Source: Polychytrium aggregatum
Lineage: Eukaryota > Chytridiomycota > Chytridiomycetes > Polychytriales
Length of the DNA: 64,000 bases
Assembly (NCBI RefSeq): GCF_025602895.1
Contig: NW_026516223.1
Coordinates: forward strand, 558,001-622,000
Direction of reading: 5' to 3'
The translations under genes were made by a program, and so were the position numbers. The notes under the pieces are model-generated. The model saw only the letters and a list, made by a program, of their open reading frames with translations, did no database searches and had not been told where the DNA came from. Shown here one piece after another: positions 2,248-60,328 of the stretch. The number at the start of each line of letters is the position of its first letter. Position 1 is the first letter of the stretch.

Positions 2248-3180
2248 TTACAGCTTGTAGGATGCTGTGGGAGCGGCGAGCTTGGCAGCGGCAGCCTCAT
2301 CAATGAACCAAACGAGGTTGCCGGAAACAGGGCGGACTGGAGAGAGAGGATGCAGTTTGGGAGCGGATGCCAGCAAAGTCAGTCAAGTCCATGCGAATGC
2401 GAGTCAAGGGCAGTGCAGATGGCTCGGCTCCTTTGATGGCAACATTCGCCGCGATCCTTCGGGTCCTTCGGGTCCGCGGCACAAACGGCATCACCACACC
2501 AACAGCGGGCACTCACCCAGACCAGAGGGATAGGGCACGTTGAGGTCAAAGATCTCGTGCAGAATGTCGGCCTTGGAGCCACCTGTGGCCACAAAGGCAA
2601 CCGTCTGGGCTCGGTTGATGACGGGGAAGGTCAGGGTGATGCGGGCCGGAGGCGGCTTGGGCGAGTCGGCGAGCGAGGCGACCCAGGACTGGTGGTCGCT
2701 GAGCAGCGCATGGCCGGGGAACAACGAGGCCGTGTGGCCGTCGGGTCCCATGCCCAGCAGGATCAGGTCAAAGACAGGGAACTCATCGGCCGTGCCAAAG
2801 ACCTGCCGCAAGACCTGGTCGTATGCCTGCGCGGCCTTAATGTGGTGGGTAGCCAGCTCGGGGTCGATGCTGTAGACTTGGCTGGCGGGGATGGGCACAA
2901 AGTCGAGCAGGGTCTGCTTGGCGAGCAGGAAGTTGGAGTCGGCGTGGTCCAAGGGAACGCAGCGCTCGTCGGCAAAGAAGACGTGCCACTTGGAAAAGTC
3001 GATGCTCTTGTTGTGCTTGAGGGTCTGCGACAGGATCGAGGGCAGCGAGCCACCCGAGAGCGCAACGGTGAAGCGGCCGGATCGGGCGATAGCCTGGGCA
3101 GAAAGGCCTTGGACAAAGTCGTTCAGGGCATCTGAGATGGCGGCGTTGGACGGGCCGACGTAGATGGTGGGGGCAGACAT
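2248..3180 (-). CDS. PGLS: 6-phosphogluconolactonase
   Basis: Hydrolyses 6-phosphogluconolactone in the oxidative pentose phosphate pathway. Two exons on the minus strand, 3180-2517 and 2336-2248, join in phase to 250 residues, typical for the single-domain enzyme. Family motifs seen: VALSGGSLPSIL near residue 40, FADERCVPLDHADSN near residue 70, and LGMGPDGHTASLFPG near the middle. The second exon supplies the conserved end motif LVWFIDEAAA; reading on without splicing gives a stop and loses it. The 180-bp intron has a GTGAGT donor and contains a short GGGTCCTTC duplication. The start ATG at 3180 is the first in frame. It is divergent from SEC13 across about 445 bp. Confidence 0.95.
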
Positions 3181-3625
3181 GGTGGCGGGCCGCTAAACAG
3201 GTTGATAGACAAGCAGACCGATGGCAAGCAGACCGATGGCAAGCAGACCGATGGCTGTCTTGGATCTTGTTCGATCTCAACGCGATCTGACAGCCACACA
3301 CACACACACACCGCCACCCGTCCCGGTTTCGGCGTCGCGCGGTTTCCTTTTTGGGGATGCGGCTGCTTATGAAATCTTCATTTCCGACGTGGAAGTTGAT
3401 CCTGCGTGGCCGGCCAGCAAACAGCCAGCCCGCACACCCCCCCCCAGCCGAGAAAAGGGGCGGCGGCGGGTCGTCTCTGCCTGATGCCATCCCGACCGGC
3501 AACGTCCTCCGCTGTTGCTGCATCATCTGCCGCGCACCTGCTGCCATCGCTGGCCCGCCGACCTACCCGCCTCGCCATCCGAAGCCCACGCTGTCCCTGC
3601 CGTGTGAGAGACCTAACCCGACACC
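3181..3625. promoter_or_regulatory. Shared divergent 5' region, PGLS / SEC13
   Basis: Some 445 bp between two divergent start codons. It contains three copies of a 15-bp unit (3211-3255), a short CA run near 3300 and pyrimidine-rich stretches. No TATA box stands out. A bidirectional promoter is inferred from layout only. Confidence 0.45.
3211..3255. repeat. 15-bp tandem repeat, 3 copies
   Basis: Three perfect head-to-tail copies of AAGCAGACCGATGGC just upstream of the 6-phosphogluconolactonase start codon, probably in its 5' UTR or promoter. Confidence 0.9.
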
Positions 3626-5793: not shown

Positions 5794-8070
5794 AAATGTC
5801 TGCGGCAAGGACCCGATGCGGATGTGATGCATTGGATGTCGTGCCGCGAGCAAGCTTGGGCTGCAGCTGTCCACAACCACGACAAAAGTCCTCGTGCATC
5901 TCGTTGGGTGGGTGCGCCTGGACGACTTGTGCCCGACAGCCTCATGGATCAGCTTGCCCGTTGGTGTTGATCACAAGCCGTGGGTCTTGCGTGCGAGATG
6001 AATGACCTGTCCAAATCAAGTTGGCGCGACCTGGATTGATGTGGGCTTTTGTTGGCATGCTTCTCTGTTCTCAATACACACACCGATCGCAAGAATGGGT
6101 CAATAAGTTTGATCGCCCCTGCCTTGGGTAGCCGGCACATCATCAGGATCGAATGGGCGGATGCAAACGGACTGGTGGCTCGTGTGTCTGAGACGGGGGG
6201 CAGTTGGAGGATGCAGCAAGAATTTGATGCAGCGAGAGCTGACGCAGTGTGCATCCGGTGGCAGGGCACGGTGGTCGCCAGGCCGTCGCTGTGTCATATG
6301 TAGTCTCCGCGGCATATATTGTCTCCGTGGCTTGGTTATTTTTCATGTTTTCTCTTCAGGTGGTCACATCGCAGACCCCTCGTCAGCTGCCGCGACCGTT
6401 CCCACGGTTACCACCGACAGGGTCGATGAGCACCCCCAACGCCGCCCGACGCGATCGGGCCACGCGGCACCCTTGAGCAATCTCGGGCGGCTGGGCAGGA
6501 CATGGGCTGTGCGATCTGAGGGAATATTCCGACTGGGCCAGCCCCGTGTGATGCGGCATCATCTGGCTGCAGAGCCTCGAGCGCAGGCGGTTGGTGGTCG
6601 GTTGAAGGCGCGGGCCGAATGGGTGAGCCGGACCCATTGAGCAGCGGGGGCGCTGATGCAACCCGCCTGACCGACCTGCGCAAGACAACCTTGGGGGGGG
6701 GTCTGTCCACCCCAAGAACAACAGCCAGGTGGCTTGAAGGCGCTAATGCAGAAAGGCGTCATCTGGCCGTGGTGTCTGGGCCTGGTGTGCCCGGCGACGC
6801 GATGTGGGGAACACATGCAGGCGGCTGTGGCCGGTGCCGCCGATTGTGCCCCCTGCACGAGTGATTTTTGCGGCGCTGCTGCTACGGGGTCAGTGTGGGG
6901 CTCAGCGCCCAGGGTCATCCACCCAGTAGCGCAAGAAGCAAGTCCTGTGGCTGCACGATCCTTGTGGGTGTTGCTCTGGATGCCGCTGGCGAACGGGGCC
7001 GCTGCCAAGACAGATCTGGCGAGCGATGCAGGCAGAAGCGACAGCACCCGCCTCAGCGTGCGTGCCTGATAGTACCGCGGCTCGCGGCTCGCAGCGACCA
7101 GAACCAAAGTTGACGCAGCCGCGGATCCGGCTCGCGGGCATGGGCGGGTGCGACGCTGAGCGGCATCGACTGTCCACGTTGCTGGGTCACGCTGGATCTG
7201 ATCGATTTTTGCGGCTGGTTCGGACACGGCCACAGATCCTGTGTGACCGCGCGGTGGAGCAGAGCAGGCGCGCGGCGGCGCCCGTTCTTTCTTTTGCGAC
7301 CTTGCTCTGAGGCGGCTCCACCCTTGCCTGCACAGTGCCGGTGTGGGAAAGCGAGCTGTCTGCTGTGTCTGCAGTGTCTGCTGTGTCTGCACTGTGTCTG
7401 TGGGCGGTCGTCCCATTGACTGTGGGCAGTTCTGTCCTGTTGCGTGTGTCTCGTTCTTTCTGTTTTTTTTCGGTCGGTTGTCTCTGGCGCTCCTCCCGCC
7501 TCGCTCTATTCTGCTGAGCGAACAGGCGAGTATTCAGACAATTCCATTCGCTTGATGATACCGTCCGATTAACGATACGCTCGCTGAATGATGCGCTCGC
7601 TTGATGATACGCCTACTTGATAATAACCCATCCGGTCGAGTCCGTCCACATTGGTGTTCGGCCTGTCTTTCCAGCCCACCTCTCCTTGACAGTGATGCCG
7701 GCCACCAGCCGCTTTCGCTGCTGCTGTTCTTGCCTTCTCTGTGCGCCGGCCTGTCGCCTGCTCGGCTTGTGGCGAACAAGCCCGCTGATCCACGCCCCAG
7801 CCGAGTCAGCTGCCGGCCCTTTGTGGAGGCACCTCGTTGCGCGACTCCAGCCCCCGTGGCATGCGGCTCTCAGCAACGGCCCGGCTGCCCATGCCCCAGA
7901 GCAGAAGCAAACATAAAACCCAATCCAACGCCCGCACTCATGGAAATATCGACCGAGCGAAAGACCGATCACCGTCGCCGGAAAGAGGGCTTCCTTTTCG
8001 CTTCTCCCCACCACTGTTGGAGCCACCCTCATCCCTGGACTGCTGCTCAATCCCCTCATCCCACCCCGCC
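5794..8070. other. 2.3-kb region without a recognisable gene
   Basis: Open frames on both strands (for example 6559-7416 minus and 7601-8155 plus) show no family motif, no credible splice chain and composition typical of random GC-rich translation. A short imperfect GTGTCTGC repeat lies near 7360-7405. The last part (about 7550-8070) presumably contains the multicopper oxidase promoter and 5' UTR. No tRNA or rRNA was recognised. Confidence 0.5.
7911..7920 (+). promoter_or_regulatory. TATA-like element before multicopper oxidase
   Basis: ACATAAAACC in GC-rich surroundings, about 150 bp upstream of the start codon at 8071. Proposed from position and composition only. Confidence 0.3.
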
Positions 8071-10352
8071 ATGGCCCGAGCCCTGTTTTCGCTCCTCTCC
8101 TTCCTCCTGGCCGTGCTGCCGCTCTGCTATGCCGCCACAAAAACCTTCACCCTGAATCTGGCCTACAGCACTGTCGCCCCCGATGGCTTCTCGGGCCGTA
8201 TGATGCTGGCCAACGGCCAGATCGACTACCCGATCTCTGTCAACAAGGGTGACGATGTCGAGATTACCGTCGTCAACAACCTCGACGTTGCCACGACCAT
8301 CCACTGGCACGGCATCTTCCAGAAGGTAGGTCGCCAGAATCGGTGCCATTCGCGACAGCACCGCCAGCCGCGTTCTCAACGCAAGTGTGCGATCGGTACA
8401 TGGCCAGGTTCTGTCAACCAATCACCGAGATGATTCCGACCCTGATGGATGCCCAGTGGATATACCCGATCGATCTGTCGCTCACATTTGCCTTTGTCGT
8501 CCTGCTTCATCGCACTTCTCGCATTCCCACAGGGCACTCCCTTCATGGACGGTGCTGGTGGAGTCACCCAGTGCCCCATCCAGCCCGGAGCCACCTTTGT
8601 CTACAAGTTCAACGTTGGCGACCAGACCGGCACTTACTGGTGGCACGCCCACTACAAGTCGCAGTATGTCGATGGCCTGCGCGGCCCCTTCATCATCAAC
8701 GACCCCAGTGACCCCTACAAGTCTCAGTATGACACCGATCTCACTGTCACTCTCTCGGACTTTCATCACAAGCCCTCGCAGGAGCTGCTCAACTACTACT
8801 TCACTCCCAACGAGGGTAAGCAGCGCCACGAGTGCACTCGCTGGACTTTTGCATCGCCATCCTCTGCCTCGGTATCCTTCGTGTTGCGTGGTGTTCAGTT
8901 GCTGCTTATTATACCCTTGATGCACCTCAATGTTGTCTGTATCGTTACGACTTGCTGACGCTGTGTACTTTCGTCATTGCAGGCGCCTTTGAGCCCGTTC
9001 CCGACTCTGGCCTGATCGGTGGCGCCGGCCGCTTCAACTGCAGCTTTGCCCCCGCTGGTTCGACCTGCAAGGACAGCAACCCTCTTACCGTCTACAACGT
9101 TGTCCCCGGCAAGCGCTACCGTCTCCGCTTGATCAACACCAGCGCCATGGCAAAGTTCAACTTCACCATCGACGGTCACAACATGACCATCATCGAGGCT
9201 GACGGTGTCTACACCAACCCCACCGTCGTCAACATCCTCCCTATCCACACCGGCCAGCGCTACTCGGTCATTGTCACCGCCAACGCTCCCACGGCCATCG
9301 GCAACTTTTGGATGCGCGCCGACATCAACAACCTGTGGGATCCCGCTCCCTGGCTCGCTGGCGGTCTCAACCCCCAGGTCCGCGCCATCTGGCGATACCA
9401 GAACGCTCCTGTCGTCGACCCCACCACCCAGATCGCCACCGACCTTGGCTTTGACGTCTACTCCCTCGGCGAGCTCAACGGCATTGCCGTCGGCAACAAC
9501 CCTTCGTGGAACTCGTCCATCTACCTGGACTTTTTCATCGGCCCTCTCGGTGATCAGAACATCACCACCGCCACCACCACTCTCTCCGGCCCCCCGGACT
9601 GGACTTCGGTTCAGTATTTGATGCCCAGCGTTCCCAGTCTCTACACTGCCCAGCAGAACCAGGCCCTGCCCAACAGCTCCGCCCCCATCCCCGTCGACGA
9701 TGGCTCCTGGGTCTACATCGAGATCCACAACGACGACGCCATGGAACACGTCTTCCATCTCCACGGCCACACCTTCTATGTCGTTAGCCATGGCCGCCTT
9801 CTCCACGCCCCGACCGCCACCGCCACCCTGGCTCGTCGTGACAGTATCCAGGTTCCTTCTTGTGTCGGTGGCCACGGTGGCACCGGTGAGCAGGGCTGTT
9901 TGAAGGGTTTCCTCGGCATCCTCGTCAACTTCAACAACCCCGGTACTTGGCTCATGCACTGCCACATGGAATGGCACATGGCCGCCGGTCTCGTCGTGAC
10001 CTTTGTCAACAATGCTGGTCTCTCCAGTGTCGACTTCCCTAGCGGCTTCTACGACCAGTGCAACGCCCCTGTCACCACCACCACCACTACCGCTGTTATC
10101 CCCACCACCACAACTACTACCACCACAACTACTACCACCACAACTACTACCACCACTACTACCAAGCCTACCACCAAACCCACCACCACCACCACCAAGC
10201 CCACCACCACCACTACTACTACTACTACCAAGCCCACCACCACTACTACCAAGCCCACCACTACTACCACTACTACTACCAAGCCTACTACCACCACTAC
10301 TACTACAACCACCACCACCAAGCCCACCACTACCACTAAGCCGACCACCACC

Positions 10353-10384
<32 letters not shown>

Positions 10385-10709
10385 CACCAAAAAGAAGACC
10401 ACCACTTCCAAGACTACCACGACCACCCCTTCGGTTAGTCCCTCCCCTACCGCTGGTGACTCGTGCAACAACTACGGCCAATATGCCTGTGGATCTGCCA
10501 ACGATGTTCTCATTTGTGTCGACTACTGGATCAGCATTGCAACTTGCAGCAGCGGATATCAATGTGATCCTATTTCCTTCGATTGTATCCCCGTCACAAC
10601 GGGTGATCAGCATAAAACCACTACCACTGTCCCTACCAAGACCAAGAAGACCAAGACCAAGAAGACCAAAGCTACCAAGAAGCACCGTAGTGCCGCTGTT
10701 GCCGCCTAA
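8071..10709 (+). CDS. Secreted laccase-type multicopper oxidase with C-terminal Cys-rich binding-type module
   Basis: Exons 8071-8325, 8533-8815 and 8983-10709 join to 754 residues. A signal peptide (residues 1-21, ending LCYA) is followed by three cupredoxin domains. All four copper motifs are intact: HWHG, WWHAH, HVFHLHGHTF and HCHMEWHMAAGL. The residue ten after the T1 cysteine is Leu, as in many laccases. The enzyme would oxidise phenols, amines or metal ions with O2; substrate is unknown. After about residue 540 comes a linker of roughly 120 residues that is almost all Thr with KP interruptions, then a module of about 45 residues with six cysteines (C-NNYGQYAC...WISIATC...GYQC), resembling CBM19-like chitin-binding repeats, then a Lys/Thr-rich basic tail. 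The binding role is inferred. Confidence 0.93.
10071..10429 (+). repeat. ACC/ACT low-complexity tract coding a poly-Thr linker
   Basis: Nearly pure ACC/ACT/ACA codons with AAGCCC interruptions encode Thr runs split by Lys-Pro. Mixed synonymous Thr codons indicate selection on the protein rather than simple slippage. Probably an O-glycosylated stalk between oxidase and binding module. The opposite strand is open over the same stretch, but only because of composition. Confidence 0.95.
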
Positions 10710-11308
10710 GATGATGAACATATCTCTCCTTCAAGGCCCAAAACAAGGCCTTTTCTTTATGTAGCTTTGTGTCTCCGACTTCTTTGATCCTCCCTTAATT
10801 GTGGGTTGACTGGACAGCTGCTCGATCCCCCAAAACTGCCTGGCGCACTCCTCGAATGGCACTCGCTCGTTTGGATAACGTTTGTGCCTTTCCACCCCAT
10901 CTCCAACGTGAATTGAGTTACCCCCCCCCTCTTCGTCTTGCTCACTTGCTGTTCCCCAGTGCCACCAATAAGATCATAAACTTGTCCTTCGCGCACATCT
11001 AAGCATCGCATCGCATCAACCAGAACCAATCTCGAGAGCTCGTCGTTGTGCTGTTCCTGTCGTTCTGTGCGGCTGCCTTGCCGAGTCTGTACCACACACG
11101 CACCCCAGCCCCAGCCCCAGCCCCAGCCCCACTACGCACATCACGTGTCGCAGTGCTAATGAATTTCATTTCGTCCTGCCGCTGCCCAGCGAAAATTTGC
11201 CAGCACCATTTTGGTGCGCCCGCACACGCCCCCTCGTCCTGTCCTCGCTTCCTCTCGTCTCGAATCGCCAGGCCCGCTCCCTCCCGCATCGACACCGACA
11301 CCGACACC
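10710..11308. other. Intergenic, multicopper oxidase to rhodanese
   Basis: About 600 bp with a run of CCAGCC units near 11105-11130 and poly-C at 10921. Presumably a 3' UTR plus the next promoter. No gene or RNA recognised. Confidence 0.45.
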
Positions 11309-13075
11309 ATGTTCGCCCTCGCCCGATCTTCCCTGGCCCGTCGCTGCGCTGTCAATAATGTAAATGGATACAGCGAATGCTTCTTCTCGTGCTTGTTCGC
11401 AGTGTCTTGGAAGGCCCGAGCGACGATGTGCCCATGAAGCAACGCGAGGGGAAGGGACGAAAGGATTGATGGATGAATGGGACTGTAGAATCGCGCTGGT
11501 GCCAATATCGCATATCCCGAACCTCGGGTAGTCTCTCCGATAAAGATCGAAGCCATCGGAGCCGTTCGGGATGCTGTTCCAGACCATCGGATCACCTCCG
11601 AAGGAACCTTTGGCAATCCTCGCCATCCCTACTGGCGATGCGGATGTGCACATTGCTCACCGTTCGCAATGCTGATGCTTATTTCTTGTTGTCCTTCCCA
11701 AACCCCTTCGTCCTGTCCCTCATCTCGTCTGGATCACATCATGTGCTCTCCAATGCTTATATCGGCAAACTGTGAATCAATAATCGAATCGAATCGAATC
11801 GAATCGAATCGAATCGAATCATCGACACCGTTCGACACCTGGGACCGCATCCGGTCTTGCACCGAACCTTGAACTGGCGATCGTATCCGTGGCATCGGCA
11901 CCTAGGTCCAGCGCCACGCGTTCTCCAGCGTATGTGTCTATCTAATGCTGGTTTTGCTGGCGAATCCCGAACCGACTTATCCAAACGAACGGTGATCTGC
12001 ATCGTTGCCTCGCAGTGGATCTACTCAGCTCCGATCGGGGTGCTGCCCCTTTATCCGGAGATTGATGTTAACCGTTGTTGCTCTTTGGTTTATGACTATG
12101 GCCTCGTATCTCGCTCTGGTTATGCTACCCTCGGTCCGACCTCGATATATCTTTCGTCAACCCAGTCTGCTATCTCAGCTGGCTACTTCAAGGATTACCT
12201 TGAGCGTGTCCGCGTGAATGTCAAGGAGGTCTCTGTCAGCGAGGTCAACGCCGAGCTCAAGAAGGCCGATCCTCACCACGGCGTCTCGGTTCACCTTCTT
12301 GATGTCCGGTACGCACAACCACCGCAATCGCGAGCGCTGTACTGCTTCCCAGTCGACGTTCGGGTTGACTTGAACTGCAGCATCTCCAATCGATGCGCAA
12401 TTCGCTCCTCATCATGCTACGCCTGGCCAATGCCGATGATGGCTCTTTCGTCAGCCTGCAACCGCGCCGAAATCCATGTGCTTCAACGGCATGTTGACCC
12501 TTTCACCCAATCTCTCTTGACGTCCCTGCTTTTTTCTACTTTCGCCCGACCAACACCATTGCTAGTGAGCCTTACGAGTGGAACGTCGAGCACATTCCCA
12601 ACGCCATCTACACCGGACGTGGCTGCCTGGAGAGAGACATTGTAGGTTCTTATGCCGTCACGGGCTGTGATGCAATGTTCGTTGCTGCAACTGGGCTGCA
12701 TAGATTTGCGTGATTATGTGTTGGCTTGATCTCTTTCCGGCTCAGTTTGCGAGGCTCCTCTACACCCTTCTGCTCTGCAAACTCGATCGGACGTATAAGT
12801 ATGAGCAGCTACTCACCCAGTGGGCATTGCCTCGGATCCAATATTCCGGGCTGCCGTTCATGCCGTCACAGGAGTCCATTGTCCCCGACCAGCAGGAGCC
12901 CATCGTCGTGTACTGCGCCAGTGGCAACCGATCCCTCCTGGCCGCCGAGTCTCTGCAGAACTTGGGCTACAAGAACGTTCGCAGCCTGAAGGGTGGCATC
13001 GCCGAGTGGAAGAAGGCTGGCAACCGGGTCCGCATCAACGCCTCGACCTTTGCCGACCGTGTTGAGAAGTACTAG
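11309..13075 (+). CDS. Rhodanese-like sulfurtransferase, probably mitochondrial
   Basis: Exons 11309-11359, 12166-12308, 12566-12641 and 12872-13075 join to 157 residues. The first exon encodes a short Arg/Ala/Ser-rich leader (MFALARSSLARRCAVNN), a plausible mitochondrial presequence. The remainder is one rhodanese domain: SVHLLDVR, then an EPYEW...HIPNAIY segment, and the active-site loop VVYCASGNRS with the catalytic cysteine, ending in the typical GGIAEWKKAG. Single-domain rhodaneses carry or transfer persulfide sulfur; the actual acceptor is unknown. Intron 1 is 806 bp, unusually long for this window, and holds a GAATC repeat. The exon 1 to exon 2 link depends on phase and could change if a small exon lies between them. 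Confidence 0.85.
11783..11821. repeat. (GAATC)n repeat in rhodanese intron 1
   Basis: About seven copies of a 5-bp unit inside the 806-bp first intron. Confidence 0.9.
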
Positions 13076-38121: not shown

Positions 38122-40691
38122 ATGCACCCCTCGCACGACAAGCCAAGTTTCACCGAGAGCTGCAAGAAGCTCTACCGCAAGATTGTTCCCAAGACCAGCG
38201 GCGCCTCATCGGCGTCGGTTTATAGCGCCGCACCTCCCGCCCAGTCCATCAGCACGACTTCCCTTGCCTCGGCCCATTCCGGCGACCACTTCAAGCGCGT
38301 GGTCCAGGCCATGGCCCGCCAGCAGAAAGAGGCGGTTGATGGCGACCACCTCGCCGTGCCAGCCCCGAAGCACAGCGAACTCCTCGCTCCACGCATCTTC
38401 AAGTCTGTGAGCTTCTCGGGCTCAACCTCGTCCAGCTGCCCAGTGCCCGATGCCACTGTCAAGGACACGTCCGCCACGGGCTCTCGGCAGAATCGCAGGC
38501 TTGGCTGTTCGCACCTGACCTCGAATGCCGCCGCCACCTTCGACACCTTGCTGGCTCTTCCGGAGAACGTCAAGGCTGATCCCCACAAACTCGCGGCCTT
38601 CATCCACTCGGACATGATTCTCGCAAAGTCCGTGATCACTCCCTTTGGTCACCGCCCGCTTGTCTATGCCGATTTCATTGCCTCGGGCCGCCCCCTGGGC
38701 TGCATCGAGAGCGTCATCCGTGACCACATCATGCCCTACTATGCCAACACCCACACCGAGACTGGACTGCTGGGCCGGCTCATGACCGAGCTGCGCGAGG
38801 ACGCAAGGTGGGTTTCTTTTCGCCACTGCATCGGGGCCTGACCTGCGTCTATGCCATCTCCGTTGGCACGCTCGAGTATAAGTGGTGCCTCTGGTTCGGC
38901 GATGCCGCTGGTCGTCCAGCGCCACGATGGCGAGCATGGTGCCGCATCCGTGTTGCCGTGCTCATATCCATTCCATCGCGTTTCCGCAGGACCATCATCA
39001 AGGAGTCCTGCTGGGCAGACTCGGCCAAGTTTGCATGCATCTTTGTGGGCTCGGGAGCAACCGGCTCGATCCACCGCCTCGCCCAACTGATCGGTGTCCC
39101 TGAGGCTGTCAACCGCCTGAAACCCGTTTCGACCTGTGCCGTTGGGAATCTGGAGGGAAGAGCCTCCGACCCGCTCAGGCCCTTGGTGCTCATCTCGACT
39201 GCCGAGCACCACTCCAACATCCTCGTGTGGAGAGAGATGGGCGCCCAGGTCGTTGCCATCCCCACCGATATCGCCACGGGCTTCATTTCTCTCGACGCCC
39301 TCGAGGCCACACTCAAGGTACGTTGACTGTTTCCCTGGGGGTTGCAAGGTGCTCACTGCCTCATACGAATGCACACTCTCTGACTGACCAGCCCGCTCAT
39401 CCCTTCGTTTGCTCTGCTCGCTCCGTAGGTACACACCAGCGGCACATCCTCGGCCTCCAGGCTCATCATTGGCTCCTTCTCGGCTGCCTCCAACATCGTC
39501 GGTGTCGTCCAGCCTGTTCACGAAATCGCCCATATCGTCCACGACTACCATGGCCATGTCTTTTTCGACTACGCCTGCGCCGGTCCCTATGCCAACATCC
39601 AGCTCTGTCCACCCGACGTTCCCGCTTCCAAGTTCCTCGATGGTGTCATGATCAGTCCCCACAAGTTCATCGGCGGGCCCAACACCCCCGGTGTCCTGCT
39701 GGTGCGTCGCTCCCTGTGCCGTGGATATGAGGACAATGCTCCCCCGAGCATTCCGGGCGGCGGTTCGGTCCTCTGGGTCAACGCCTCGACCCAGACCTAT
39801 GTCCGTGACCTCGAGACCCGAGAAGAGGCCGGCACCCCCGACATCATCGGCGCCATTCGAGCTGGCTTCACCTTCTTCATCAAGTCCATGCTCACTCCCC
39901 AGTTCATCCTGGAGCGGCAGTTTGAGCTCTGCAGGCGTGGCCTCAAGTCCCTGCAAAGCAACCCAAACATCCTGATCCTGGGTCCACAGGACTCGTCCGA
40001 GAACCGTCTGCCAATCTTCTCGCTCCTGGTCCGGTCGCCCATCGCGGACGGCGACAAGATGCTCCACCACCACTTCGTCAGCCGACTGCTGACGGATCTC
40101 TTTGGCATTCAGACTCGCAGCGGATGCAGCTGCGCGGCGCCATATTACATCGAGCTAACCAACATGACCAGATCCGAAGAAGAGTTCCTCCGCCGCACCT
40201 TCCTCACGGACCACCTCGAATCCATCAAGCCCGGATTCGTGCGCTTCAACTTGAGCCACACCCACACCGAAGAGGAGATCGATTACATCCTCCGAGGCAT
40301 CGATTGGATTGCCACCCATGGCTACAAGCTGCTCCCGCTCTATGACCACGATCCTTCGTCCGGCAACTGGACGCCCCGCCTCAAGGACCCTTCGCCCATG
40401 GAGGCCACCATTGTCAACAAGGCTCTGCTGCTGCAAAAGGCCTCATCCGCCACCATTCCCATGAGCCACGACATGTTCACCCGCGAGGCCACGATCGAGA
40501 TGCTGTCGTTCTGGTTCGAGCGAGGCGTCGTCGACGCTGAGGGTCTCAAACAAAGTGAGCGCTTGCAGCCAGTTCCTATGAACAAGCGGGCCTCATCACA
40601 GAATCTATGGTATGCCGATGGCAAAGACGCCGCCGCATACATTGCGTCACTCGGCCGTTCGGCCGACGGACGCCTGGTGCCGTTCATATGA
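38122..40691 (+). CDS. Class-V aminotransferase, cysteine desulfurase-like
   Basis: Exons 38122-38807, 38990-39317 and 39429-40691 join to 758 residues. About 140 Ser/Ala-rich residues come first, then a fold-type I PLP domain: VYADFIASGRPLGCIE, GSGATGSIHRLAQL, AEHHSNILVWREMGA (SufS/Csd-like), FFDYACAGPYANI and the PLP-lysine motif SPHKFIGGPNTPGVLLVRR. A cysteine in RSGCSCAAPY sits where SufS-type enzymes carry theirs. The mitochondrial NFS1 signature is absent and no presequence is obvious, so a housekeeping Fe-S role is unlikely. Long versions of this family occur in scattered protists and bacteria; the reaction is not established. A C-terminal extension of about 150 residues has no recognised domain. 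It is convergent with TOR. Confidence 0.88.
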
Positions 40692-57919: not shown

Positions 57920-60328
57920 ATGAAGCTCTCCGCCGCCGCCCTCTTCCTTTCGGTTCTTTCCGCAGCTCTCCTCGAGCCTGTGTCAGCCACTGGATACTTG
58001 AACTACCCCTACACCCGCACTCTTCCTGGTTTGTATCGCCCCCTCTTGCCTTCAAGCGTGGCGCGGGTAGCGCCTCACCAGCCCCTGCACAGCTCCTGAC
58101 ATCTGCGACTCGCCCCTGTTTCAGGTGGAAACGGTAACAGCGGCGGCAGTGGTTATAGCGGTCACGGCTCTGGATACTCCACGAACCCGGACATTTGCAG
58201 CACCACCCGCTATGGCCCTCCCCGAACTTCGCTGAAGCCAGGCAAGCAAAACATCCATTATACCGTCACAGCCCCCAAGTCTGGTCGCTGCGAGGTCTAT
58301 ATCGATCTTCACGCTGGCCAAAACAACTGGCAGGTTCGTTAAAGTCCGGAAGTTCACTCGCTCGACCATCTTTTCCACCACCACTTGGTCGATGGAACTG
58401 GAGTTGTCCTTAAAGGCTGTTGCTGACTAGATTGCTGCTTTAGCTCATTGGATCCAGGGACAATTGCGGTGAAAGCAGCATGGCCGATGCATCCCTTGAG
58501 GTCAATATCCCTGATGTCGACACCACTGATGCTGTCATCCGCTGGAGCTGGACCACTGGACAAGGCAAGGATGAATGCTACACTAGCTGGTAAGACCAAA
58601 CTCTAGCACTGCTTTGGTCGATGTGCAGATGCAATCTTGACGCATGAAACTCGCTGATACATTGAAATGAAATACAGTGCCGACGTCAGCATCCATGGCA
58701 ACCCATACACCACCAAGCACGAACCCAACCCTTACACCACCAAGCATCAACCCAACCCGTACACCACCAAGCACGAACCCAACCCTTACACCACCAAGCA
58801 TCAACCCAACCCTTACACCACCAAGCACGAACCCAACCCATACACCACCAAGCACGAACCCAACCCTTACACCACCAAGCATCAACCCAACCCGTACACC
58901 ACCAAGCACGAACCCAACCCATACACCACCAAGCACGAACCCAACCCTTACACCACCAAGCATCAACCCAACCCATACACCACCAAGCACGAACCCAACC
59001 CATACACCACCAAGCATCAACCCAACCCGTACTCCACCAAGCATGAGTCCAGACACCCACACACTGTGACCAACTCTCCGCCGGTCTATTCATCGGCTAA
59101 GCCGACCGTATACAGCACTCCGGCTTCCTCCGCGTTTCCCTCATATACTTCTACCGTGATTTACTCCACGTCTTTGCCAGCGACAACGGCCTCCAACGTT
59201 TACACCCTTCCCTCTGCCTTCCCTATCACCTCCACCACCAGCGCTGTCTCGTCCCAGCTTCCCACTGGCACCGTCACTCCCACTGTCACTCCTTCCGTGA
59301 CTCCCACCACCAGCGCTTACAACACTCCCACCGACACTCCCACCGTCACTCCTACCGTCACTTCCACCACCAGCGCTGTCTCGTCCCAGCTTCCCACTGG
59401 CACCGTCACTCCCACTGTCACTCCTTCTGTGACTCCCACCACCAGCGCTTACACTACTCCCACCGACACTCCCACCGTCACTCCTACCGTCACTTCCACC
59501 ACCAGCGCTGTCTCGTCTCAGCTCCCCACTGGCACCGTCACTCCCACTGTCACTCCCTCCGTCACTCCCACCACCATTGCTTACACTACTCCCACCGACA
59601 CTCCCACCGTCACTCCTACCGTCACTTCCACCACCAGCGCTGTCTCGTCTCAGCTTCCCACTGGCACCGTCACTCCCACTGTGACTCCTTCTGTGACTCC
59701 CACCACCAGCGCTTACAACACTCCCACTGTCACTCCTTCTGTGACTCCCACCACCAGCGCTTACAACACTCCCACCGACACTCCCACCGTCACTCCTACC
59801 GTCACTTCCACCACCAGCGCTGTCTCGTCTCAGCTTCCCACTGGCACCATCACTCCCACTGTCACTCCCTCCGTCACTCCCACCACCAGCGCTTACAACA
59901 CTCCCACTGTCACTCCTTCTGTGACTCCCACCACCAGTGCTTACACTACTCCCACCGACACTCCCACCGTCACTCCTACCGTCACTTCCACCACCAGCGC
60001 TGTCTCGTCTCAGCTTCCCACTGGCACCGTCACTCCCACTGTCACTCCTTCTGTGACTCCCACCACCAGCGCTTACAACACTCCCACTGTGACTCCTTCT
60101 GTGACTCCCACCACCAGTGCTTACACTACTCCCACCGACACTCCCACCGTCACTCCTACCGCCACCTCCGCCACCTCCCTCAGCTCTTGCCCCTCGGCAA
60201 CTTTTGTCCCCATCACCATCACCGTGACCCAGACCACTACAGTCACCGCTGCTTGCTCCGCCTCCAGCTCTCCTTCTGCTGGTCCCTACAACCCCTACAA
60301 CCCTTACAACCGTCATAGCTCGCACTAG
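57920..60328 (+). CDS. Secreted LPMO-like (chitin-binding type-4-like) protein with two tandem-repeat regions
   Basis: Exons 57920-58028, 58125-58333, 58444-58589 and 58678-60328 join to 704 residues. A signal peptide (about residues 1-23, LEPVSA) is followed by TGYLNYPYTRT, which resembles the HGYL...P..R opening of PF03067-type lytic polysaccharide monooxygenases, except that Thr replaces the copper-binding N-terminal His. The domain ends with the family-like AVIRWSWTT...CYTSCADVSI and has paired cysteines (ICSTT, GRCEV, DNCGE). From about residue 160 come twelve copies of a 9-residue NPYTTKHEP/HQP unit, then a Thr/Pro/Ser-rich region with a larger repeat, ending in a NPYNPYNR motif. No GPI signal is seen. 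If the domain call is right it probably binds polysaccharide rather than cleaving it. Confidence 0.7.
58699..59046 (+). repeat. 27-bp coding repeat, 12-13 copies
   Basis: Each unit encodes NPYTTKH followed by EP or QP. The E/Q order along the array is E,Q,E,Q,E,E,Q,E,E,Q,E,Q, and a degenerate last copy (NPYSTKHES) ends it. Third-position differences (CCT/CCC/CCA before TAC) track neighbouring copies, suggesting recent unequal exchange. Confidence 0.97.
59230..60190 (+). repeat. Long Thr/Pro/Ser coding repeat, about six units
   Basis: A unit of roughly 132 bp encoding SAVSSQLPTGT followed by TPTVTPSVTPTTSAY and TDTPTVTPTVTSTT recurs about six times with small insertions. Mucin-like composition implies heavy O-glycosylation. 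Confidence 0.95.

Follow-up and report, generated by a model that had tools for sequence, protein, structure and literature searches.

A laccase-type multicopper oxidase of Polychytrium aggregatum with a threonine-rich stalk and a CBM19-like module that may hold it at chitin

The window analysed here is a 64,000-nucleotide stretch from the chytrid Polychytrium aggregatum (contig NW_026516223.1, or C124:558001-622000 in an assembly of 64.7 Mb and 418 contigs), and the element in question is a gene on its + strand, at 8071-10709, that encodes a predicted laccase-type multicopper oxidase continuing into a poly-Thr stalk, a small six-cysteine module and a basic tail. An earlier sequence-only reading had proposed that the oxidase is fused to this module and thereby tethered to chitin or another polymer. 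The gene model, the identity of the oxidase and of the module, and the occurrence of the same arrangement elsewhere in the genome are described below.

The gene and its product

The gene is modelled as three exons with inferred introns, giving a product of 754 residues, and its parts are as follows (evidence in brackets).

8071..8325, + strand: exon 1, putative signal peptide and start of cupredoxin domain 1, with HWHG (splice reconstruction, PF07732, motif position)
8326..8532, + strand: intron 1, inferred, GT-AG, 207 nucleotides (splice reconstruction)
8533..8815, + strand: exon 2, remainder of cupredoxin domain 1, with WHAH, and start of domain 2 (splicing, Pfam, motifs)
8816..8982, + strand: intron 2, inferred, GT-AG, 167 nucleotides (splice reconstruction)
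8983..10070, + strand: exon 3, oxidase portion, cupredoxin domains 2 and 3, with HVFHLHGH and HCHMEWH, ending near where laccases usually stop, FYDQC here (PF00394, PF07731, 5mhw alignment)
10071..10454, + strand: exon 3, stalk of 128 residues (open frame, absence of a GTRNG donor)
10455..10586, + strand: exon 3, six-cysteine CBM19-like module of 44 residues (Pfam, genome search, alignment, fold model)
10587..10706, + strand: exon 3, Lys/Thr-rich basic tail of 40 residues (translation)

From the ATG at 8071 to the stop at 10707-10709 there are 755 codons including the stop, with no internal stop provided that the two inferred introns are removed. The fusion proposed in the sequence-only reading is borne out, in that oxidase, stalk, module and tail all lie in one uninterrupted frame across exon 3. 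When exon 3 was mononucleotide-shuffled 2000 times the frame never stayed open, and for its last 663 nucleotides it did so once in 2000, so that it is not a product of chance. Many loci of this assembly occur on two or more contigs, so that it looks like one containing both haplotypes, and on contig C379, which we regard as the second haplotype, 8071-10709 is identical to the window copy; the differences between the two over 7029-12108 (four substitutions, two 1-base deletions and one 15-base deletion) all fall outside the gene, at 7374-7463 and 10921-11975.

Residues 1-21 of the product read by eye as a signal peptide (MARALFSLLSFLLAVLPLCYA), and three Pfam domains then follow, all above their cut-offs, namely Cu-oxidase_3 (PF07732, 2.2e-41), Cu-oxidase (PF00394, 3.1e-44) and Cu-oxidase_2 (PF07731, 3.1e-28). 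The intact copper motifs that had been reported are all present, as HWHG (residue 78), WHAH (122), HVFHLHGH (435) and HCHMEWH (505), which we take to be the copper-ligand motifs. A search of solved structures gave 101 distinct sequences at E ≤ 0.001 (the best 60 of the 101 being listed), and the closest relatives are laccases (1v10, 3.2e-82; 9gly, 5.1e-82). By its domains and motifs, the protein is thus a laccase-type three-domain multicopper oxidase (CAZy AA1), for which oxidation of a substrate is predicted. In the alignment with 5mhw, FYDQC lies opposite WSDLC, where the matched laccase ends, and the stalk starts three residues after the last Cys of FYDQC.

For the stalk and tail the earlier description was accurate: roughly 120 residues of Thr with Lys-Pro interruptions had been claimed, and the stalk's 128 residues include 94 Thr, 12 Lys and 12 Pro, while the tail, described as Lys/Thr-rich, has 10 Lys, 1 Arg and 12 Thr among its 40 residues. 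The Thr codons of the stalk are mixed (ACC 53, ACT 36, ACA 4, ACG 1), so that its DNA is not a pure trinucleotide repeat, and the only two runs of at least 12 ACN codons in the whole window both lie inside it. No hydrophobic end of the glycosylphosphatidylinositol type was seen by eye in the tail.

The module and its occurrence across the genome

When the oxidase module was searched against its own genome it matched at 34 places with E ≤ 10, 30 of these at E ≤ 0.0032. Altogether 31 module rows were read (30 loci plus L011), which reduce to 18 distinct sequences; of four matches lacking a locus, that on C375 is L011 and is included, and those on C48 (L010), C370 and C157 were left out. Two of the 31 rows belong to the oxidase; in the 29 other rows the 65-70 residues preceding the module's first Cys contain between 10 and 50 Thr (lowest in L060), and the frame ends 1-3 residues past the last Cys in all 29, as against 40 further residues in the oxidase. 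The basic tail is accordingly found on the oxidase only, the other 17 distinct module versions being without it. It resembles the Lys/Thr-rich linker of a further GH18 protein (L028, 2.5e-62), where that linker follows a Cys-rich stretch near the N-terminal end.

The proteins bearing stalk and module include, by their Pfam matches, GH18 chitinases (L043, 2.6e-69; L054, 4e-18), M36 proteases (L042, 2.8e-99; L049, 7.1e-99) and an S1/P1 nuclease (L036), for which the Pfam match is above cut-off on the upstream piece (1.6e-8) and below it on the module exon (4.2e-4). Three more (L044, L050 and L053) show a chitinase-like DxxDxDxE motif by eye; the pieces concerned had no Pfam match, and for L053 there was none among solved structures or in NCBIfam either. 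Since stalk and module together recur on other secreted enzymes, they look like a shared anchoring tag of this genome's secreted enzymes, judged by sequence comparison, and not like a one-off fusion.

Several observations on these partners may be added. The four S1/P1 nuclease copies (L033-L036, on C118, C384, C386 and C399) have an identical module, with Thr/Lys stalks that differ in make-up and repeat number. A secreted-looking, tagged family labelled EIGDLC by eye (L011, L037-L040, L051, L055, L056 and L060) has the motifs HELVEALTD and GEIGDLC; apart from the tag, Pfam gave no name for its members L038 and L051. Nor was there any informative Pfam name for the other scanned partners L057, L021, L059 and L046, or any NCBIfam match for L051 and L059, and the labels LPMO-like (lytic polysaccharide monooxygenase-like; L057/L058 and L021, the last lying outside the 18 distinct module versions), expansin-like (L059) and small Cys-rich (L046/L047) were given by eye, without profile confirmation. 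In a tree of the modules two of the 15 inner branches are well supported; the EIGDLC group appears in 76% of 200 bootstrap trees and a chitinase-type group in 0%, and such a tree cannot show by what route the cassette moved.

As to what the module is, the sequence-only reading had called it a six-cysteine, CBM19-like module, and the six cysteines and a weak CBM_19 resemblance both stood. With its flanks, the oxidase module matches CBM_19 (PF03427) at E 0.016 and 15.6 bits, which falls under the curated cut-off of 20.1; trimmed, it gives E 0.13 and 12.7 bits, an EGF-type model giving 13.3 bits. The cut-off is passed by some related modules (L011, 27.1 bits; L013, 22.9; the M36 proteins L019/L020, 20.4 with neighbours) and missed by others, among them the nuclease module in three more copies (18.8), and CBM_19 appears at E ≤ 1 in 11 of the 18 distinct versions (best 6.1e-5). 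Aligned, these 18 all keep six Cys and one Leu, and an aromatic residue, the Trp of DYWISIAT, is conserved in most. Like CBM19, the module is C-terminal on GH18 chitinases of this genome, as CBM19 also is on yeast chitinases. The match to the CBM19 profile is partial, however, and the CBM19 of Saccharomyces is a four-disulfide knot (PMC11423589, drawn on, like the other papers cited here, in part), whereas six cysteines are invariant here. On present comparisons the module is therefore CBM19-like, and not CBM19.

Structure prediction had been suggested as a check in the earlier reading. A single-sequence fold model of the module has a predicted local distance difference test score (pLDDT) of 80.3 and shows three strands, then two, as against 62.4 and a lone helix for an out-of-frame translation of the same DNA. 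The predicted fold may be akin to that of CBM14, peritrophin and tachycitin (fungal Avr4 included), the CBM14 fold being small and disulfide-rich with three plus two strands. Among the first seven Foldseek rows, four have titles that name chitin binding or chitotriosidase/CBM14 (Blo t 12, tachycitin, chitotriosidase and its CBM14); the remaining three are Der p 23 and, twice, EHEP, both of which we take to be peritrophin-like. Chitin-binding domains are thus among the nearest solved structures, but identities in the alignments to Blo t 12, tachycitin, CBM14 and Avr4 are 8-31% and E-values weak (0.096 to 3.8). By sequence, the single module found Blo t 12 at E 0.67 and cyanuric acid amidohydrolase at E 1.7 among solved structures. 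A profile of the 18 modules gave one match there (E 2.5), over 20 residues of a class III chitinase, which was taken as chance.

The chitinase partners, together with the CBM_19 scores above cut-off in some versions, suggest chitin as the ligand, and chitin or a close N-acetylglucosamine (GlcNAc) polymer is what the related sequences and the predicted fold would imply; the sub-threshold score of the oxidase's own module weighs against this. Five Chitin_bind_1 (CBM18-type) matches also occur in the genome.

Predicted role and the alternatives to it

It seems probable, from sequence and modelled structure, that this gene encodes a secreted laccase-type oxidase kept on a chitin surface through a genome-wide C-terminal cassette. 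The signal peptide would send the protein out of the cell, and its three cupredoxin domains, as is usual in the family, would use O2 to oxidise a phenol-like compound or a related reductant. The Thr stalk, which is probably stiff and rich in O-linked glycans, would separate enzyme from anchor, while the module, to judge by its relatives and predicted fold, would bind chitin or a closely related GlcNAc polymer, whether that of the organism's own wall or that of a chitin-containing substrate. The basic tail may add electrostatic binding, as the sequence-only reading had suggested. The outcome may be oxidative chemistry, whether cross-linking, pigment formation or detoxification, limited to the chitin surface. 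The tether to chitin or another polymer that was first proposed is thus kept as a best guess, with the correction that the tag is not special to the laccase.

Within chitin binding, a serious possibility, though one that falls somewhat short of even, is that the cassette aims the oxidase at external chitin (insect exuviae or another fungus), where it would act with the tagged chitinases and proteases. A tag common to GH18 chitinases and M36 proteases would indeed fit a digestive kit for chitin-protein material, but a nuclease and an oxidase would gain little from chitin as a substrate, and for them retention at a surface would be equally useful. As proteases, nuclease and oxidase all share the tag with the chitinases, retention on chitin in general is preferred here over aiming at a substrate.

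More doubtful is the suggestion that the module binds some other ligand (cellulose, another glucan, or a phenolic or tannin) and places the oxidase there. Besides the low CBM_19 score already mentioned, it could appeal to the top Foldseek match of the module, a protein solved with tannic acid, and to a match of one of the 18 module versions to CBM_1 (E 0.25), yet the chitinase partners, the CBM_19 matches among related versions and the four Foldseek titles noted above (of the first seven) all argue for chitin.

It is also rather improbable that the enzyme is a ferroxidase or other metal-oxidising enzyme, fixed in the wall to take up iron or deal with metals, and not a laccase. The oxidase does have a Glu in its loop FEPVP, and a paralogue in the genome, Fet3-like by eye, has SEPIP, the loop Glu presumably having a role in Fet3p. 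However, the oxidase scores 280 bits against the laccase 1v10 and 182 against Fet3p (1zpu), it retains what we take to be the functional laccase Asp (PDSGLI / PDSTLI in the 9gly alignment), and it is the paralogue, on four contigs, that has a hydrophobic C-terminal segment, as a membrane ferroxidase would. Finally, an annotation artefact, in which stalk and module come from another transcript, or from an adjacent gene of no relation, through some unusual intron (19 GT dinucleotides, none of them of the GTRNG type, occur within 10040-10709), is very hard to credit, as that interval contains neither a stop codon nor a GTRNG-type donor and the same arrangement recurs in 17 other distinct versions.

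A broader suggestion may be put forward tentatively, namely that one cassette, carried by oxidase, nuclease, proteases, chitinases and others, displays much of the secretome on chitin as a multi-enzyme coat in which the laccase would be the oxidative member. Such a coat would be a functional counterpart of the dockerin-tagged cellulosome of rumen fungi, but built on a polymer and not on a scaffold protein. Were the tag to bind chitin, it would offer a zoosporic fungus a way to hold diffusible enzymes, the oxidase included, at a chitin surface, and would be a natural tag for placing laccases on chitin; the one question of ligand spans all 18 distinct module versions.

Fungal laccases usually end after the third cupredoxin domain, as the sequence-only reading had remarked. 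That generalisation has a published exception in ZtrLac1A of Zymoseptoria tritici, a native AA1_3-CBM20 laccase with demonstrated starch binding that is reported as the first of its kind (PMC6700816), its authors counting seven modular laccases with CBM20, all from Capnodiales. Like it, the present protein is a native laccase of three domains to which a carbohydrate-binding module (here a predicted one) has been added, but ZtrLac1A is an ascomycete protein whose CBM20 binds starch, whereas here there are a short, predicted CBM19-like module, a poly-Thr stalk and a basic tail. Another comparison is with laccase-1 of the Acanthamoeba cyst wall, likewise a laccase kept in a protective polysaccharide wall (a location only proposed for the oxidase here), for which the parts of PMC11423589 drawn on describe no binding module, deproteinated walls being bound by its own first copper oxidase domain. 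A survey of fungal GH18 proteins put the number of chitin-binding domains at about 1,250, in five kinds of which CBM_19 is one (PMC8042737), CBM19 is noted on one protein, from D. cristalligena, among GH19 chitinases of early-diverging fungi (PMC6784888), and Batrachochytrium dendrobatidis is said to have an AA1 laccase (PMC6690862). A partial literature search, covering few subscription journals, found no description of a native laccase with CBM19 or a chitin-type module. Since CBM20 laccases are published and a chitin-type module was not found, the oxidase is filed as a variant of the CBM-appended (modular) laccases, a class already known, in which the predicted CBM19-like, chitin-type module would be new.

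Other multicopper oxidases and neighbouring genes

Genome-wide there are 14 matches to PF07732 and 10 to PF07731, which resolve into three forms of oxidase: the window gene and its second copy, one form carried by C410, C412, C257 and C395, and another present on two contigs. The four-contig form, which is the Fet3-like paralogue whose hydrophobic C-terminal segment was found on each of its contigs, lies close to the beginning of contigs C257 and C395, and its distribution suggests two loci on two haplotypes. Across 11 loci of the two other forms, on the + strand, there was neither a run of 8 ACN codons nor a match to the module pattern, a pattern that recovers 7 of 9 known modules; by this pattern the other two kinds of oxidase are without the stalk-module tag. 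Among viral_contigs, one stretch fitted a pattern for relatives of the oxidase and none was confirmed.

The genome also encodes a radial-spoke protein (PF06098, 1.9e-52), so that the organism has flagellar genes, and these together with the laccase, GH18 and M36 genes fit a zoosporic fungus.

The neighbouring gene pieces in the window suggest no link to the oxidase. They comprise an ornithine/arginine decarboxylase piece (950-1900, +), a glucosamine-6-phosphate isomerase/6-phosphogluconolactonase piece (2494-3192, -), a rhodanese piece (12710-13072, +) and a class V aminotransferase piece (39429-40688, +). At 58658-60325 there is in addition a repetitive Thr/Pro/Ser-rich open frame (NPYTTKH, then TPTVTPSVTP repeats), with no Pfam match at 0.001; its codon use is oxidase-like, and it is possibly a wall or surface protein.
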